DNA of 64,000 bases from Sphingorhabdus sp. M41 (GTDB lineage: Bacteria > Pseudomonadota > Alphaproteobacteria > Sphingomonadales > Sphingomonadaceae). The position numbers and the translations under genes are program-made. Each line of letters opens with the position of its first letter. Positions within the stretch are counted from its first letter, which is position 1. This document shows, piece after piece, positions 3,906-39,976 of the stretch. Under the pieces are notes generated by a model. It searched no databases. It was not told where the DNA came from and was given only the letters and a program-made list of their open reading frames with translations. The stretch lies in contig NZ_CP014545.1 of assembly GCF_001586275.1 (NCBI RefSeq), positions 2,878,501-2,942,500 on the forward strand, given 5' to 3'.

Positions 3906-5861
3906 ATGACTGAGGCTCCGGGAAAAAATGATCTGGTGGATTTAATTGCATCCCCGCGCAGCGATGATGCCACTCATTGTACCGCTGCGGACTATGACCG
4001 GTTGTACAAGGAAAGCATCGCCGATCCCGATAGCTTCTGGTCCCGTCAGGCCGAACGGCTGGACTGGAACAAGGCCCCCGGCAAAATCGCCAACTGGTCC
4101 TTCGATCCGGTGTCGATCAAATGGTTTGAAGATGGCGCGTTGAACATCTGCCACAACGCGGTCGACCGCCATGTCGCCGCCGGCAAGGGCGATGTCACCG
4201 CGCTGATTTTCGAACCCGATGATCCGAAGTCGCCCGGCCGCACGATCAGCTATGCCGACCTGCTGGCAGAGGTCATCAAAATGGCCAATTGCCTGAAGAA
4301 ACTGGGCGTCCAAAAGGGCGACCGGGTCACTATCTACATGCCGATGATCCCCGAAGGGGCGATTGCCATGCTCGCCTGCTCCCGTATCGGCGCGATTCAC
4401 AGCGTGGTCTTTGGCGGCTTTTCCCCCGATGCGCTGGCCGGCAGGATCGAGGATTGCGACAGCAAGTTCGTGATCTGTGCGGACGCGGGTCGGCGCGGCG
4501 GCAGGCCGGTGCCCCTGAAAGCGAATGTCGATGCGGCGCTGGAAAAGGTGTCGGTCGATGCCGTTCTCGTGATCAACCATACGGACAGCGATATTGTGAT
4601 GACCGCCGGACGCGACCATTATTATCACGAGCTCAAGATTGATGTGCCGGCGGACTGCCCCTGCGAGCCGATGAACGCCGAGGATCCCTTGTTCATTCTC
4701 TATACGTCCGGATCGACGGGCAAGCCCAAGGGCGTGCTCCACACGACCGGCGGCTATGCGGTCTGGGTAGCAACGACCTTTCACTATGTCTTCGACTATC
4801 AGCCCGGAGAGGTTTTCTGGTGCGGCGCCGATATCGGCTGGGTCACCGGGCACAGCTATATTGTCTATGGCCCGCTGATCAACGGTGCCACCGAGCTGAT
4901 GTTCGAGGGCATCCCCAATTATCCCGATTTTGGCCGCTTCTGGGAAGTGGTCGAAAAGCACAAGGTGAACATTTTCTATACTGCGCCAACCGCCATCCGC
5001 GCCCTGATGCGCGAGGGGGACGGGCCGGTCAAAGCCCATGACCGGTCTTCGATCCGCCTGCTCGGTACAGTCGGCGAACCGATCAATCCGGAAGCCTGGC
5101 TCTGGTATTATAATGTCGTCGGCGAAGCCAAGTCGCCGATTGTCGATACCTGGTGGCAGACCGAGACGGGAGGCATCATGATCACCACCCTCCCCGGCGC
5201 CCATGGCATGAAGCCGGGCAGCGCCGGAAAGCCGTTTTTCGGCGTCCAGCCGCAACTGGTGGATGGCGACGGCAAGATACTGGAAGGCGCGACCGACGGC
5301 AATCTGTGCCTCACTGGTAGCTGGCCCGGACAGGCGCGCAGCGTCTATGGTGACCACGAGCGGTTCATCCAGACCTATTTCAGCACCTATAAGGGCAAAT
5401 ATTTCACCGGTGATGGCTGCAAGCGCGATGCGGATGACTATTACTGGATCACCGGCCGCGTTGACGATGTGATCAATGTTTCGGGCCACCGCATGGGAAC
5501 GGCGGAAGTCGAATCCGCTCTCGTCTCTCACCCCAAGGTCGCCGAGGCAGCGGTGGTCGGCTATCCGCATGACATCAAGGGTCAGGGCATTTACTGCTAT
5601 GTCACATTGAATGCGGGCGAGGAACATTCGGACGAATTGGTGGCCGAACTGCGCATCCATGTCCGCAGTGAAATCGGCCCCATCGCCACGCCCGACCATT
5701 TGCATCTGACACCCGCCCTGCCGAAAACCCGGTCCGGCAAGATCATGCGCCGGATCCTGCGCAAGATTGCCGAGAATGAACATGGCGCCCTGGGCGACAC
5801 ATCGACGCTGGCCGATCCGAGCGTTGTCGATGCATTGGTCGAGGGGCGGCTGAACAGATGA
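3906..5861 (+). CDS. acs: Acetate--CoA ligase (AMP-forming acetyl-CoA synthetase)
   Basis: A 651-residue full-length enzyme that activates acetate to acetyl-CoA through acetyl-AMP in the cytosol. The ATP loop [12 protein letters not shown] lies near residues 265-276. TWWQTETGG, the adenine-binding motif, is about 150 residues later. The C-terminal RSGKIMRR near residue 613 carries the catalytic lysine that is acetylated to switch the enzyme off in this family. The start ATG follows a GAGAGGAA Shine-Dalgarno. The acetate permease genes actP and DUF4212 lie about 1 kb away on the other strand, so the region is an acetate uptake and activation module. Confidence 0.96.
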
Positions 5862-5863
5862 AT

Positions 5864-5942
5864 GTGCTCCGCACTCGATGCGGAGCTCCGGCGACGAGAA
5901 CTATTCTTTGTAGCGCAGGGCTCCGCATCAAGTGCGGAGCAC
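5864..5942. repeat. Dispersed palindromic repeat family A, copy 1
   Basis: About 79 bp with GTGCTCCGCACTCGATGCGG on the left and an inverted CCGCATCAAGTGCGGAGCAC on the right, around a unique 35-bp centre. Each arm is itself a small palindrome. The same arms recur at 30905-30979 and 39892-39971. This copy sits 2 bp after the acs stop and 4 bp before the stop of the convergent nitroreductase gene, so it could act as a bidirectional hairpin terminator. Confidence 0.8.
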
Positions 5943-5946
5943 AAGC

Positions 5947-6624
5947 CTAGCCGTCAAAACCGACAAACACGGCGGCCTCGTCAATCGGCTTGCGCGTTGA
6001 TACCACCGCGTTGGCGGGAAAGCTCTCATCCGGCCAGCCGAGCGCGATACTTTTCATGATCACTTGATCATCGGCGATCCCTGCATGTTCGCGTACCACT
6101 GGCGACTGCATGATGCCCTGGCTGTTGATCACCGTACCCAGTCCCCGCGACCAAGCCGCATTGACCAACGCGGTTGCCACGGCGCCACAGTCAAAGGGCG
6201 TATCGTCACTGCCGTCCACCGCGCGGTCATAGGTGATGATCACGCATACCGGCGCGTCAAATTGCCGGAAACCCCGCATCACCCAGTCCTGCCGCGCTTC
6301 CTTGTCGTCGCGCTCGATCCCCATTGCCGAGAAAAGCTGTTTCGCCACCCCGATCTGCCGCTCGCGGTGCGGTCCGGCAAAGGCCTCACCGGTCCGGAAT
6401 TCGCGCGATTGCGGCACGCCAGCCAACATCCGTTCGGTGTTTCCTGCCCGGATTTTCTCCAGCGGTTCACCGGTGATGACGTAGAAACTCCACGGCTGCG
6501 TATTCATCGACGATGGCGCGCGCATCGCCAGTTCGAGGATCTCCTCGATCAGTTCTTTCGGTACGGGTTCCGGCTTGTAGCCGCGTATGCTGCGGCGGCC
6601 GAGGACTACTTCGTCAAACTGCAT
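5947..6624 (-). CDS. Nitroreductase family protein
   Basis: A 225-residue FMN-dependent nitroreductase-type oxidoreductase. The RRSIRGYKPEPVP motif near the N-terminus and RAPSSMNTQPW at about residues 34-44 are the FMN-phosphate and flavin contacts of the family. A C-terminal ALGWPDE segment with an N-x-x-x-S-T-R-K end is also typical. The natural substrate is unknown. The ATG at 6624 is preferred because GGAG lies 7 nt upstream; the longer frame to 6729 has no ribosome site. It is convergent with acs and separated from it by a family A repeat. Confidence 0.88.
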   Translation of the reverse strand: MQFDEVVLGRRSIRGYKPEPVPKELIEEILELAMRAPSSMNTQPWSFYVITGEPLEKIRAGNTERMLAGVPQSREFRTGEAFAGPHRERQIGVAKQLFSAMGIERDDKEARQDWVMRGFRQFDAPVCVIITYDRAVDGSDDTPFDCGAVATALVNAAWSRGLGTVINSQGIMQSPVVREHAGIADDQVIMKSIALGWPDESFPANAVVSTRKPIDEAAVFVGFDG

Positions 6625-25580: not shown

Positions 25581-25759
25581 TCCGACGGGGCGGGCTTTCG
25601 CCCGGCGCGCGGTCGCGCTTGCCTCGCTTTGCTCGGATTAAATCATGATAATTTGCTGAACTGATACCGACGCGAAGCGGAGGCAAGCGCGACCGCGCGT
25701 CCGCAGCGTAAGCGAGGATAGCCAAGGGCGCGGATGCGCCCGCCCGGCGCCTGAGGTTA
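25581..25759. repeat. Dispersed palindromic repeat family B, copy 1 (inside the GTA cluster)
   Basis: The right module (25668-25759) runs from CCGACGCGAAGCGGAGGC through GGGCGCGGATGCGCCCGCCC to CGCCTGAGGTT. A shorter inverted left module (GCGCGGTCGCGCTTGCCTC) lies at about 25581-25637. Copies recur at 29486-29698 and 37738-37825. It lies between the DUF3168 and major tail genes. Confidence 0.8.
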
Positions 25760-25768
25760 AAATAAATA

Positions 25769-28659: not shown

Positions 28660-29160
28660 CTATTCAACCAGATGGACCCGCGCCAATGCCTGCATAGGAG
28701 ACGTCACCAGCGAAATCTCCGCCACATCCAGATCAAGCAATTCGCGCGGCTGTTCGCCCGCGGCCCGCTTCACGCGATAGCCAAAGCTCAGCCCATTCAC
28801 CGCCGCACTGGACAACAAGGCCGCAGCATCCCGCCCGGCCTTGGTCGCGGTCGACACCGTCCCGATCACCCGCAACCCGCGCCGGTCTTCGCGGACAAAA
28901 TCGATGCTGCCGATCCGCCGCATAGGGTCATGTTGCCACAACAGCGGCAAGGACTTGCCTCCCGGGAACGCACCAAACGCGCCGGGCCTTATGATATCCC
29001 CGCCCTTGTCGATCCGGTCAAAGATCGCAGCATAGCCAGCGAAGCGCAGGGCACCGGGAATCACTGAAGGAGAATCCGTTCGCCCTGAGCCTGTCGAAGG
29101 GCTCTTCCCGGCAAGAGGTGCTTCGACAAGCTCAGCACGAACGGGTTTGTAAACGCTCAC
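28660..29160 (-). CDS. GTA prohead protease HK97 family, gp4-like, with repeat-derived N-terminus
   Basis: 166 residues from a GTG that overlaps the DUF6127 stop (GTGA at 29160-29157). The protease core starts with LRFAGYAAIFDRIDKGGDII, then LPLLWQHDPMRRIGSI with the catalytic His, and VNGLSFGYRVK containing the Ser. It matures capsid proteins. The first about 30 residues (such as RAELVEAPLAGKSPSTGSGR) are a translated palindromic repeat (29145-29076) and not part of the family. A GTG at 29064, just after the repeat, is the other possible start but has no ribosome site. Confidence 0.85.
   Translation of the reverse strand: MSVYKPVRAELVEAPLAGKSPSTGSGRTDSPSVIPGALRFAGYAAIFDRIDKGGDIIRPGAFGAFPGGKSLPLLWQHDPMRRIGSIDFVREDRRGLRVIGTVSTATKAGRDAAALLSSAAVNGLSFGYRVKRAAGEQPRELLDLDVAEISLVTSPMQALARVHLVE
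29076..29145. repeat. Palindromic repeat family C in frame at the 5' end of the prohead protease
   Basis: 70 bp with CCGTTCGCCCTGAGCCTGTC and its imperfect inverse GACAAGCTCAGCACGAACGG around a short centre. The type is widely scattered in sphingomonad and other proteobacterial genomes. Here it lies inside the reading frame, with no stop codon in that frame. Confidence 0.85.
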
Positions 29161-29465
29161 GACACCAGGTGCCCCAACCCCAGCCGCATCGCGATCCCGA
29201 CCAGCAGCAAGGCCAGCACCCCCCGAATTATCCAGCGGATCGCCGCCTTCCACGCGCTCGCCTTGGCGTCGCGCCAGGCGCGGAGCAGTTCGCGCAGCTC
29301 GTCAATATCGTCCTGCGCCGTCGGATCGGCCAGCCCGAGCCGGTCGAGCACCCGCACCGCGCCGCTGTCCGTCGCCTCCTCGACAATCGCCCGCAATGTC
29401 ACCAGATCAGCCCCATCGCCTTCCGCCTGCGCCATCAGGCGGGCAAGCATTTCGTCGTTTTGCAT
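29157..29465 (-). CDS. DUF6127 family GTA protein
   Basis: 102 residues. ARLMAQAEGDGADLVTLRAIVEEA and LRELLRAWRDAKASAWKAAI are the DUF6127 hallmarks, and the C-terminus holds one membrane helix (about 77-97). Members sit between portal and protease in sphingomonad GTA clusters; the role is unknown, and membrane attachment of the prohead or a holin-like part are both only guesses. The stop overlaps the GTG start of the protease. Confidence 0.82.
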   Translation of the reverse strand: MQNDEMLARLMAQAEGDGADLVTLRAIVEEATDSGAVRVLDRLGLADPTAQDDIDELRELLRAWRDAKASAWKAAIRWIIRGVLALLLVGIAMRLGLGHLVS

Positions 29466-29485
29466 TTTTTTTAAAACTCCGTTTT

Positions 29486-29698
29486 AACCTCAGGCGCCGG
29501 GCGGGCGCATCCGCGCCCTTGGCTATCCTCGCTACGCTGCGGGCGCGCGGTCGCGCTTGCCTCCGCTTCGCGTCGGTTTGAACCTAACCAACAGTTGGAT
29601 TGCCGAACCGACGCGAAGCGGAGGCAAGGCCGACCGGCCGCCGCGCCTTATGGCGCGAAAGCCAAGGGCGCGGATGCGCCCGCCCGGCGCCTGAGGTT
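29486..29698. repeat. Dispersed palindromic repeat family B, copy 2 (full inverted pair)
   Basis: Two full modules face each other: AACCTCAGGCGCCGGGCGGG at the left end and CCCGCCCGGCGCCTGAGGTT at the right, each about 90 bp, around about 27 unique bases. The transcript would fold into a very long hairpin between the portal and DUF6127 genes in the GTA block. It accounts for most of the 277-bp gap there. Confidence 0.85.
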
Positions 29699-29742
29699 CA
29701 ATAAAAAACCCGCGCAGCGAACTGCCGCGAGACAAAATAGCG

Positions 29743-30879: not shown

Positions 30880-30904
30880 GTTTGTTCCTTGGTTTTGTAA
30901 AATA

Positions 30905-30979
30905 TGCTCCGCACCTGATGCGGAGCCCTCTCGGCGTTCAGTTCCCAACCTCTAGAGCTCCGCATCAAGTGCGGAGCAC
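30905..30979. repeat. Dispersed palindromic repeat family A, copy 2
   Basis: 75 bp: TGCTCCGCACCTGATGCGGA on the left, inverted TCCGCATCAAGTGCGGAGCA on the right, unique centre. It fills the gap between the terminase stop (30988) and the portal ribosome site, both read on the minus strand. Confidence 0.8.
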
Positions 30980-30987
30980 ATAAATCT

Positions 30988-32379
30988 CTACCGAACCCGT
31001 GGCTCCCGCGCCTTGCCCAGCATCAGTTCCGTCAACGCCCAGACCAAAGCATCCGCCCGATCCGGCGACCGCCCCGGCCCTTCATAGCCGCCGCCGACCA
31101 GCAGCCCGCACATCTCGTCTTCCAGTTGCGGGAACGCACCGGCATGATGGACGCGGCCATTTTCATAGAGCGCCGCCACCGGTTCCGCCCGCGCGACCTT
31201 GCCGCGCGAAGCGTGGACCAGCTTCACCGGCAGCGAAATCTTCGCCGCCTGCAGCACCGATTTAACCATCGCCCCGCCTTGATTGGCTTCGGCAATGACG
31301 CGGTCGGCATCATAGCGGTCCGCCGCATCAGCCACCTTGCGTGCCCATGTTTCGGGGCTGGCCTTTTCCACGCTGCAATCGGCCAGCACATAAGCTTTAC
31401 CATCCGCGCCCAGTCCGGCGACAATGATCCCGCAAGCGTCTCCATTTTTCGATGCCGGCGGGTCGACGCCGATTACGATGCGGGCAAAACCAATCTCCCG
31501 TTCGTCTCGAGCGCAGTCGAGAGACCGGTTCGCGCTATCCAAAGTGTCTCGACTTCGCTCGACACGAACGGCATCGCGGCCAACCCGGCACTCCTCAATC
31601 ATCGCCCTTGTCCACAGCGCGCCCTCGACATCCTCGATCAGCTCGCCATCCAGCTCCTGTCGCCCCAGCCTTGTGCCGCCATAATCCGCCGTCATCGCGG
31701 TGAGAAAAGCCACCGGCAAATGCAGATCATTATCCAGAGTCCGGCCTGACGTGATCGCCACCTCTCCACTCACCAACGCCCGCACCAGCGGCACCGGCCG
31801 CGGCGTTGTGGTCGCCACCAGTTGCGGCCGGTACCCAAGACGCAAACCCATTTTCAGATTGTCCCAGGCCGCTTCCGCCTGTCCGGCATTGTTCATCCAT
31901 TTGGCAATCTCGTCGCACCAGCCGTGGCTGTGCTGCGGTCCGCGCAGGCCCTCCGGCTCGGCGGCGGAATAGAGATGCGCCTGCGCGCCATTATCCCAGG
32001 TTAGCCGCTTCAGCGACGGTTCCCAGACCGGCCGCTGCTTGGGTGGCGCGATCGATAGCAGACCGCTTTCCCCTTCGACCATCACCGTGCGGGTTTCGGC
32101 ATAATTGGCCCCGACCAGCGCGAAGCGGGCGCTGCCATCGCCTTCGGCAATGTGGCGCACCCATTCCGCCCCGGCCCGGGTCTTGCCAAAGCCGCGCCCG
32201 GCCATGATCAGCCAGACCGACCAGTCCCCTTCGGGCGGCCTCTGTCCGGGTCGCGCCCAGAAATGCCAGCGGTAGAATAATTGCTCCTGTTCCTGCCGGC
32301 TCAGCGAAGAAAAAAATATGTTGCGCTCCCGCGCGGTCCATTGGGCAAATAGCTCCGCCTCGGAGATATCATTCATCAT
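30988..32379 (-). CDS. GTA terminase large subunit, gp2-like, with in-frame repeat insertion
   Basis: 463 residues: ATPase and nuclease that package DNA into GTA heads. Walker A is GRGFGKTRAGAEW (about 59-71), the Walker B-like acid pair is in HGWCDEIAKW, and the C-motif is VATTTPRPVPL. The RuvC-like nuclease has D in VIGVDPP, E in VIAEANQGG and D in DRADALVWAL. Residues 270-294, between the two domains, are translated palindromic repeat (31571-31498). Overlaps the small terminase by 11 bp. All key residues are intact. Confidence 0.93.
   Translation of the reverse strand: MMNDISEAELFAQWTARERNIFFSSLSRQEQEQLFYRWHFWARPGQRPPEGDWSVWLIMAGRGFGKTRAGAEWVRHIAEGDGSARFALVGANYAETRTVMVEGESGLLSIAPPKQRPVWEPSLKRLTWDNGAQAHLYSAAEPEGLRGPQHSHGWCDEIAKWMNNAGQAEAAWDNLKMGLRLGYRPQLVATTTPRPVPLVRALVSGEVAITSGRTLDNDLHLPVAFLTAMTADYGGTRLGRQELDGELIEDVEGALWTRAMIEECRVGRDAVRVERSRDTLDSANRSLDCARDEREIGFARIVIGVDPPASKNGDACGIIVAGLGADGKAYVLADCSVEKASPETWARKVADAADRYDADRVIAEANQGGAMVKSVLQAAKISLPVKLVHASRGKVARAEPVAALYENGRVHHAGAFPQLEDEMCGLLVGGGYEGPGRSPDRADALVWALTELMLGKAREPRVR
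31498..31571. repeat. Palindromic repeat inside the terminase gene
   Basis: 74 bp: CCGTTCGTCTCGAGCGCAGT on the left and inverted CGACTTCGCTCGACACGAAC(GG) on the right. The ends CCGTTCG/CGAACGG match those of the element in the protease gene. In the terminase frame it reads VRVERSRDTLDSA then LDCARDERE and contains no stop. Confidence 0.85.
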
Positions 32380-32857
32380 TGTCGGACGTCGGCTGCTTTC
32401 CCTCTCCTTCGGCCAGCGCCCGCCGGCGCAGCAGCTTCATCCGCATGTCTCCCAGTTTGCGGTCCAGATCGATGCGCACCTGCTCGGGATTGATATCATC
32501 CTCGATCGCGCGGGCCAGCGCCACCATCTGCTTGTGCGCCAGCAATAATTTGACGCCGATACCGTCATTATATTGTCTTACCGTCGCCACTTGCTTGCCC
32601 TCATGGAACACAGGTTTGTCGACGCCATTGCGGGCGCGGTCGAGCAGATCCATTTCAAGCAGCTCATAGCCGGCGGCGAGCGAACGCATCCATTGCCGGA
32701 AAAACTCCGGATCCCGCTCACGCCAGCTATAAACAGTCGACACCGCAACACCGGCAGCCTTCGCCGAATTCGCCACATGCGAGCTTATCGCAAGCTCTTT
32801 CAGGAACTTCAGCTTGCGCCTGTTGTCATAACATCCCCTGACTTCTGATTTTGGCAT
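32369..32857 (-). CDS. GTA small terminase-like DNA-binding protein, gp1-like
   Basis: 162 residues from the ATG at 32857. The N-terminus has a helix-turn-helix (FLKELAISSHVANSAKAAGVAVSTVYSWRERDPEF) typical of small terminases that choose DNA for packaging, followed by a helical oligomerisation part and a charged tail. It is first in the GTA cluster. The frame is open to 32899, but the ATG at 32857 matches the domain. Only about 40 bp separate it from a terminator of the upstream gene. Confidence 0.82.
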   Translation of the reverse strand: MPKSEVRGCYDNRRKLKFLKELAISSHVANSAKAAGVAVSTVYSWRERDPEFFRQWMRSLAAGYELLEMDLLDRARNGVDKPVFHEGKQVATVRQYNDGIGVKLLLAHKQMVALARAIEDDINPEQVRIDLDRKLGDMRMKLLRRRALAEGEGKQPTSDNDE

Positions 32858-37670: not shown

Positions 37671-37737
37671 ATGGTGGGTTTTTGGCGCGACGGCGAATTG
37701 GCTGTGCTTCACTTCGCTCGATATCATCTCCAACAAA

Positions 37738-37825
37738 CCGAGCGAAGCGAGGCAAGCGCGACCGCGCGCCCGAGCTTATGCGAGGGAAGCCAAGGGCGCG
37801 GATGCGCCCACCCGGCGACTGAGGT
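37738..37825. repeat. Dispersed palindromic repeat family B, copy 3
   Basis: One right module: CCGAGCGAAGCGAGGCAAGC through GGGCGCGGATGCGCCC to CGACTGAGGT. Its last bases (TGAGGT) lie 8-13 nt before the ATG of the YqaA-like gene and probably serve as the ribosome site. Confidence 0.8.
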
Positions 37826-37833
37826 CTAAAAAA

Positions 37834-38415
37834 ATGCTCAAACGCCTATACGAATGGATGCTCGACAAGGCCGCGCATCGGCAGGCCCCGAAATGGCTGG
37901 CCGGAATCAGCTTTGCCGAATCCAGCTTCTTCCCGATCCCGCCCGATGTCATGCTGGCCCCCATGTGTCTGGCAAAACCCGAGCGCGCCTATTGGTACGC
38001 GCTGGTCTGCACCGTCGCCTCGGTTCTCGGCGCACTGCTCGGCTATGCCATCGGCTATTTTGTCTTTGAGACCGTCGGCATGCCGATCCTCGAATTTTAC
38101 GGTGTCACCGAAAAATTCGATATTTTTGCTCAGAATTTCAACGAACAGGGCTGGGTCGTCGTCCTGCTGGCCGGCTTCACGCCACTGCCGTTCAAGGTGA
38201 TCACCATCGCTGCCGGCAGCACCGCCATGCCGCTCCATATCCTGATCGGCGCCGCCATTATCGCCCGTTCTGCTCGCTTCTTTCTGGTCGCTGCCCTGCT
38301 CCGCTATTTCGGACCGCCGATGAAGGACTGGATCGACAAGAATTTCGCTCTCGCCACCACTGTCGTCGGCATCCTCTTCGTCGGCGGCTTTGCCGCCGTC
38401 AGCTGGTTCCTGTGA
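37834..38415 (+). CDS. YqaA family (SNARE-associated/DedA-like) membrane protein
   Basis: 193 residues with four to five membrane helices. FAESSFFPIPPDVMLAPM near residues 28-45 is the YqaA/DedA signature with the E and the FxxPxP loop, and FTPLPFKVITIAAG near residue 122 is the second conserved loop. DedA-like proteins act in lipid carrier flipping and membrane homeostasis; the exact substrate is unknown. The upstream frame to 37543 is an antisense-free extension through a repeat and is rejected. The only ribosome-site-like stretch is the end of the family B repeat. Confidence 0.88.
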   Translation: MLKRLYEWMLDKAAHRQAPKWLAGISFAESSFFPIPPDVMLAPMCLAKPERAYWYALVCTVASVLGALLGYAIGYFVFETVGMPILEFYGVTEKFDIFAQNFNEQGWVVVLLAGFTPLPFKVITIAAGSTAMPLHILIGAAIIARSARFFLVAALLRYFGPPMKDWIDKNFALATTVVGILFVGGFAAVSWFL

Positions 38416-39863: not shown

Positions 39864-39891
39864 TCACCCTCACTGCGCGTCGCACAGGTTT

Positions 39892-39971
39892 GTGCTCCGC
39901 GCTCGACGCGGAGCCCTGCCGGCAAAAATGCGCTCGTTGAAACGAAGAACTCCGCATCAACTGCGGAGCAC
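39892..39971. repeat. Dispersed palindromic repeat family A, copy 3
   Basis: 80 bp with GTGCTCCGCGCTCGACGCGG and inverted CTCCGCATCAACTGCGGAGC around a unique 40-bp centre. It sits between the convergent ends of gshA and dinB, 5 bp from the dinB stop. Confidence 0.8.
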
Positions 39972-39976
39972 AGGCG

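Follow-up and report, generated by a model that had tools for sequence, protein, structure and literature searches.

The gene for the large terminase subunit (terL) of Sphingorhabdus sp. M41 carries in its reading frame a 74-bp palindromic element, and the reading that we favour, at a probability of about 0.8, is that multicopy coding palindromes, of the kind described as Rickettsia palindromic elements (RPEs) and intragenic REPs, land in the linker between the two domains of TerL and are tolerated there as peptide, with turnover across four families (A-D). The linker looks like a tolerated spot that is repeatedly filled by mobile repeats, because relatives have either nothing or other hairpin repeats at this joint. 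Positions below are those of the window, the whole stretch of 64,000 nucleotides that was analysed, and the features under study are the following:

30988..32379, minus strand: terL, large terminase subunit, 463 aa (ORF; Pfam Terminase_6N at residues 57-261, Terminase_6C at 303-450)
31483..31584, minus strand: interdomain linker (landing site), residues 266-299, bounded by conserved CR and RIVIGVDPP; about 8-10 residues in empty orthologues
31498..31571, no strand assigned: 74-bp palindromic element of Family A, read in the terL frame as residues 270-294, missing in relatives
31544..31571, minus strand: arm 1 (28 bp), the one read first in coding order
31526..31543, minus strand: variable loop of the element, 18 bp
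31498..31525, minus strand: arm 2 of the element, 28 bp, with 25 of its 28 positions paired to arm 1

The earlier note had described an inverted repeat of 74 bp with CCGTTCG...CGAACGG ends at 31498..31571, and the letters match at exactly these positions. Folded computationally as RNA, the element reaches -43.5 kcal/mol (z = -6.3), a stability equalled by none of 200 shuffles; a chance palindrome is ruled out by this energy together with the copy number given below. Nothing in Rfam attains the gathering score within 30900-32500, and an RNA family was therefore rejected as the identity of the element. No target site duplication (a criterion for MITEs) is readable at TerL, where the flanks are too diverged. 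The consensus of the A arm is free of stops in all six frames, which is unexceptional, being attained by 13% of shuffles. Families A and C have a common start, CCGTTCGT, and may be related.

The roughly 25 residues were also said to stand at the border of the ATPase and nuclease domains with all catalytic motifs preserved, and both points agree with the protein sequence: residues 270-294 fall between the two Pfam matches, and residues 61-67 (GRGFGKT), 156-157 (DE) and Asp 306, 440 and 443, the presumed catalytic residues of this family, are invariant in 89 aligned TerLs, that of the window included. The sole structure prediction for TerL is poor (mean pLDDT 64.6) and places the insert as a low-confidence coil between a helix at 258-263 and the strand that opens the nuclease domain, 298-306; pLDDT falls below 50 at residues 273-295 of the insert, which proves little because other stretches (52-65, 140-164, 167-226 and others) are equally low. 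The model is thus compatible with a flexible linker and is no proof of one, and a sequence search for a solved relative gave no chain at E <= 0.01.

The neighbours of terL are a portal gene (PF04860) and a prohead-protease gene (PF04586), and of 149 genomes sampled from the family 119 have a match to TerL, which suggests that this head cluster is GTA-like. Other repeats occur around it. A Family C inverted repeat at 29076-29144 lies in frame with the ORF of the prohead protease (28660-29253, minus strand), just ahead of the conserved portion of that gene; it is probably in a spacer, since the true start of the protease may be further downstream. A further palindrome family (TGCTCCGCA..TGCGGAGC) is found between the portal and terL genes, at 30902-30929 and 30954-30981, and again at 5856-5948 and 39886-39975, and in other species a similar palindrome occupies the spacer ahead of hisF. 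Further repeats, long, rich in GC and arranged both inverted and direct, with as much as 52 bp at 100% identity, are placed at 25604-25766, 29482-29735 and 37735-37834.

Empty and filled linkers among relatives

A TerL match was obtained in 38 of 40 genomes, the own genome included, that in G004 being confined to the peptide of the insert itself. Thirty TerL loci (again with our own) comprise 10 whose linker is filled by A, B or C (L029-L038), 18 with an empty linker and two with a truncated TerL. When TerL is aligned with these relatives, as the earlier note had proposed, orthologues without the repeat are also without residues 270-294, so the opposite case that it had named, the same residues in homologues devoid of the repeat, was not found. 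The filling peptides are VERSRDT..LDCARDER for A, RHAELDSAS..RIKSGMT for B, RPEPVEG for C and PPLQGRGSGGG or SPSLSGEG for D. In close relatives the linker holds A, B, D, what looks like a remnant of A or no insert, and C appears farther out; more A, B and C, as well as D, come from further loci (family genomes, named genomes and IMG/VR), the named records with D being Citromicrobium and an Erythrobacter sp. (L106, L147, L161, L113). In four composites (L060, L070, L209, L245) additional palindromes are nested inside the linker insert. The linker pattern was unmatched in 6 of 219 loci, four of them short linkers without insert and two truncated TerLs. In genomes G005 and G011 (L049 and L055) the truncated TerL runs on into a different reading frame, as would follow from a deletion of most of the head cluster, with the upstream neighbours kept.

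The restriction to the linker is strict. Across 170 distinct TerL loci (227,067 coding bases, starting at most 252 residues ahead of the linker motif, of which the linkers make up 19,020), 49 matches to the core motifs were found, all in the linker and in 32 loci (A 20, D 17, B 8, C 4, the families being assigned with our own short motifs or peptide patterns), and none in the remaining TerL coding sequence of about 208 kb. The distance from GALW to DPP is at most 35 residues in 131 loci, 36-40 in seven and at least 41 in 32, with the frame kept, and none of the 170 linkers contains a stop codon. No frameshifted insert was seen either, among loci recruited by whole-TerL similarity, which disfavours broken genes. 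With flanks added, 116 of these loci (1.03 Mb) contain 101 core matches, of which 26 belong to the linker; the other 75 are outside TerL, many of them in apparent spacers that follow terL and precede the protease gene.

Copies in other genes and the exchange of families

The 3.34-Mb genome (G000) gives 34 BLAST matches to the element, corresponding by our count of the rows to 24 distinct places. Among the 22 places inspected, four are inside genes and flanked on each side by conserved sequence, namely TerL, LigA (twice) and GlyS (glycyl-tRNA synthetase beta). The search for further in-frame copies that had been proposed was therefore successful. The earlier note had set the copy in TerL against the usual position of such elements between genes; here it is not unusual, as in-frame copies are also present in LigA and GlyS of this genome and the TerL site takes several families in different TerLs. 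Two more copies are N-terminal of conserved domains, in an FeS-assembly protein and an aminotransferase class V protein, whose true start may be downstream. Family A is matched in 18 of 32 genus genomes, including this one, and B, C and D recur elsewhere in the genomes searched, the fewest being two matches of B in G002, counting the one in TerL; the extra copies of B and C are mostly single arms, and a D composite is multicopy in the genus. The RAYT transposase (Y1_Tnp, PF01797) has no match in G000 and is present in 13 of the 30 genomes searched, a set that includes our own. Selfish DNA tolerated as a peptide insert had been the initial interpretation; the tolerated insert is supported, as an in-frame palindrome at a domain border that is empty in relatives, and the word selfish is not, as no mobilising enzyme was identified.

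In samples of 30 genus orthologues each of LigA and GlyS, core matches are limited to two internal places in LigA and three in GlyS, besides D in an N-terminal extension of LigA. The first LigA site holds A, C and D and the second A alone, while the GlyS sites hold A and C, A, B and D, and D alone, so that at least two families are found at three of the five sites and a single family at two. Compared with the solved ligase 2owo_A (presumably E. coli LigA), both LigA inserts fall between chain-adjacent residues, at about 162 and 542. Family A is seen at the second LigA site in 13 of the 30 orthologues (L251-L263), some of them with adjoining extra partial copies (LDTNG repeats), and the glycyl-tRNA synthetase beta ORFs (L281-L310) extend in the genus to 935 aa (some others end at contig ends), with in-frame repeat insertions and a fast-changing region. 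The spacer upstream of hisF was resolved in 10 of 14 loci, with A in four and other palindromes in six (the remaining four were unresolved by flank match), and it is empty or near-empty in some further genomes, as the match rows suggest. To judge by these sequences, the TerL linker is one case of a wider habit and not unique, because LigA, GlyS and the hisF spacer also take repeats at fixed places.

Turnover is also apparent on TerL trees, both of which rest on a single, possibly recombining gene. A tree built from the DNA of 41 TerLs, with the linker excluded, places L170 (D) as sister to L030 (A) with 96% support, L169 (empty) joining both at 98%, and L032 and L172 (B) among carriers of A, some branches being weak. 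A quick protein tree, with many weak branches, was made from 112 of 120 listed proteins (out of 7,999 matches; six were dropped for want of a linker match and two for having fewer than 400 residues), whose linkers are empty in 54, A in 27, B in 10, C in 7, D in 7, other in 4 and A remnant in 3. These seven states require at least 34 changes among the 112 listed TerLs, against a mean of 53 in shuffles, and the well-supported branches alone force at least five changes (gains or losses) for A, six for B, four for C and four for D. P0020 and P0050 miss 19 residues of A relative to P0002 and P0013 and retain the ARDER end, which looks like an in-frame partial loss of A; the remnant was seen in proteins only (P0020, P0036, P0044, P0050), with no pattern match to its DNA in viral_contigs.

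A locus-fixed exchange of cassettes, in which a repeat's position is inherited while one family replaces another (by copying from a genomic repeat, by hairpin-driven template switch or by transfer of the linker between species), would account for the neighbouring D and A of L170 and L030, for the nested composites, for the mixed occupancy of the hisF spacer and for the D inserts of L170 and L178, which are identical at 115 of 124 bases between flanks of only 77% and 83% identity. We nevertheless consider it unlikely. Shared transfer is not needed for these two inserts, since the D composite occurs in multiple copies across the genus, and this, together with the empty sites of close relatives (L169, L175), makes separate insertions possible; moreover, no swap was found between near-identical strains, and two of the five LigA and GlyS sites hold a single family. 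It is accordingly quite doubtful that the TerL linker, one LigA place and two GlyS places are heritable docking sites where families are exchanged in frame like cassettes, in place of random insertion followed by selection.

Constancy of the repeat DNA

The 11 TerLs that bear A differ at codon positions 1, 2 and 3 by 0.097, 0.076 and 0.321 over the gene, and by 0.020, 0.074 and 0.034 in the A arms (55 dependent pairs in each case). The arms are therefore far steadier than the silent sites of TerL and lack a codon pattern, and the loop is variable. The same contrast is found at the second LigA site, where 13 orthologues give 0.071, 0.051 and 0.314 for the gene and 0, 0.031 and 0 for one 28-bp arm. 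What is kept constant is the DNA repeat and not the peptide, which itself seems to lack a conserved role.

Conservation of the arms at silent positions could also be expected from a selected hairpin or longer linker, by which an mRNA hairpin would slow translation at the domain boundary or the linker would tune packaging; the strength of the hairpin and its location at a domain border fit this proposal, as does one usually unpaired arm position at which a pair has arisen in 3 of the 11 TerLs. Compensatory evolution of the hairpin is rejected, however, since nine pair positions vary in the TerL arms, none of them with a two-sided change, seven with pair-breaking changes and one with a wobble. 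The insert is, in addition, missing in many close relatives, and its place is taken by families differing in length and sequence, so that selection of this kind appears improbable, and we read the arms as young or renewed copies of a repeat.

LigA and GlyS are expected to be essential, and their inserts stand against a decaying gene, the suggestion that GTA genes under relaxed selection gather repeats, for which the truncated TerL within a shortened cluster in two genus genomes (L049, L055) could be cited. Decay is further disfavoured by the third-position excess in insert-bearing TerLs, which points to purifying selection on TerL in the genomes that carry the insert, and by the stop-free linkers, and we regard it as very improbable. 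Stable hairpins are a known feature of bypass sites, and it can hardly be credited that the repeat is skipped, by ribosomal bypass or excision from RNA, since an open frame and frame-keeping lengths in all 170 linkers would then be unneeded.

Relation to known coding palindromes

Wolbachia palindromic elements (WPE) are palindromic repeats of an alphaproteobacterium, and they resemble the present elements in this respect, by description only. RPEs are reportedly the subject of papers by Ogata and Claverie. WPE are named in the same paper (PMC3733652) in which RPEs are described as multicopy palindromes encoding short in-frame peptides in unrelated genes. Family A shares with RPEs that it is a multicopy palindrome read in frame; here, by contrast, a single gene site takes several families in different TerLs, and the host is a sphingomonad. 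According to the published description RPE-4 and RPE-6 belong to the CGTC repeats and end in a CGTC tag (PMC3733652), and, compared by eye with that description, family A is without it, ending in CCGTTCG/CGAACGG, so that a terminal CGTC tag for A was rejected. The tag is not evident in families A and D, unlike CGTC REPs, whereas family B, at the TerL site of other species, matches the description of these REPs (a CGTC tag, a stem of 8-9 bp that begins with AT, a loop of 4-5 and a CCA tail, with head-to-head dimers; inserts of L032, L037 and L038 compared by eye with PMC3733652). With REP/BIME elements that have a RAYT, family A shares its 28-bp arms in inverted pairs, and it differs from them in that this genome has no Y1_Tnp match.

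Di Nocera et al. 2013 described CGTC and GTAG REPs, as singles and dimers, inside genes of many species, the hosts including a DNA ligase and tRNA synthetases of Sphingopyxis alaskensis and Erythrobacter litoralis; different REPs were found at about the same recB site in two Xanthomonas species, and flexible linkers or loops were proposed as harmless sites (PMC3733652). Because of this description of intragenic REPs, coding palindromes are already known, including in this bacterial order. Recurrence, as described there, concerns one gene in two species, in contrast to four families in dozens of distinct TerLs here, and neither terminase nor phage occurs in the main text of that paper, whose supplementary list of target genes is outside this statement (PMC3733652). 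A literature search, mostly at the level of titles and starts of abstracts, found no other paper on palindromes of several families at one such coding site and none on in-frame insertion of a palindromic repeat in sphingo- bacteria. As far as we have seen, what is apparently new is the terminase host, the count of families at a single codon-level site, the series of empty, filled and remnant linkers, and the contrast with silent sites. Family A has the properties of a protein-coding palindromic element, being a multicopy palindrome that lies in frame and free of stops in a conserved gene and is missing in orthologues.

The favoured reading, that coding palindromes are tolerated in the linker, can then be set out as follows. 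A copy of family A, with two inverted 28-bp arms resembling a REP dimer, would have landed in the linker DNA between the ATPase and nuclease domains and would have persisted as a peptide of 25 residues, because the arm is open in all six frames and the joint tolerates added residues. The same joint would be a recurrent landing site, having received A, B, C and D in different TerLs with the frame open every time, and in the simplest reading the DNA repeat stays steady since its copies are young or are renewed from other copies in the genome. Insertion would be random and then filtered by selection, the arms would be renewed through copying, and a TerL with the insert would still work.

Coding palindromes count as curiosities. 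Since one linker offers across related bacteria a natural series of empty, A, B, C, D and apparent remnant states, survival of repeats by tolerance becomes testable against repeats that are directed or exchanged. It also means that conserved repeat peptides in annotated proteins may mirror renewal at the level of DNA and not a function of the protein.
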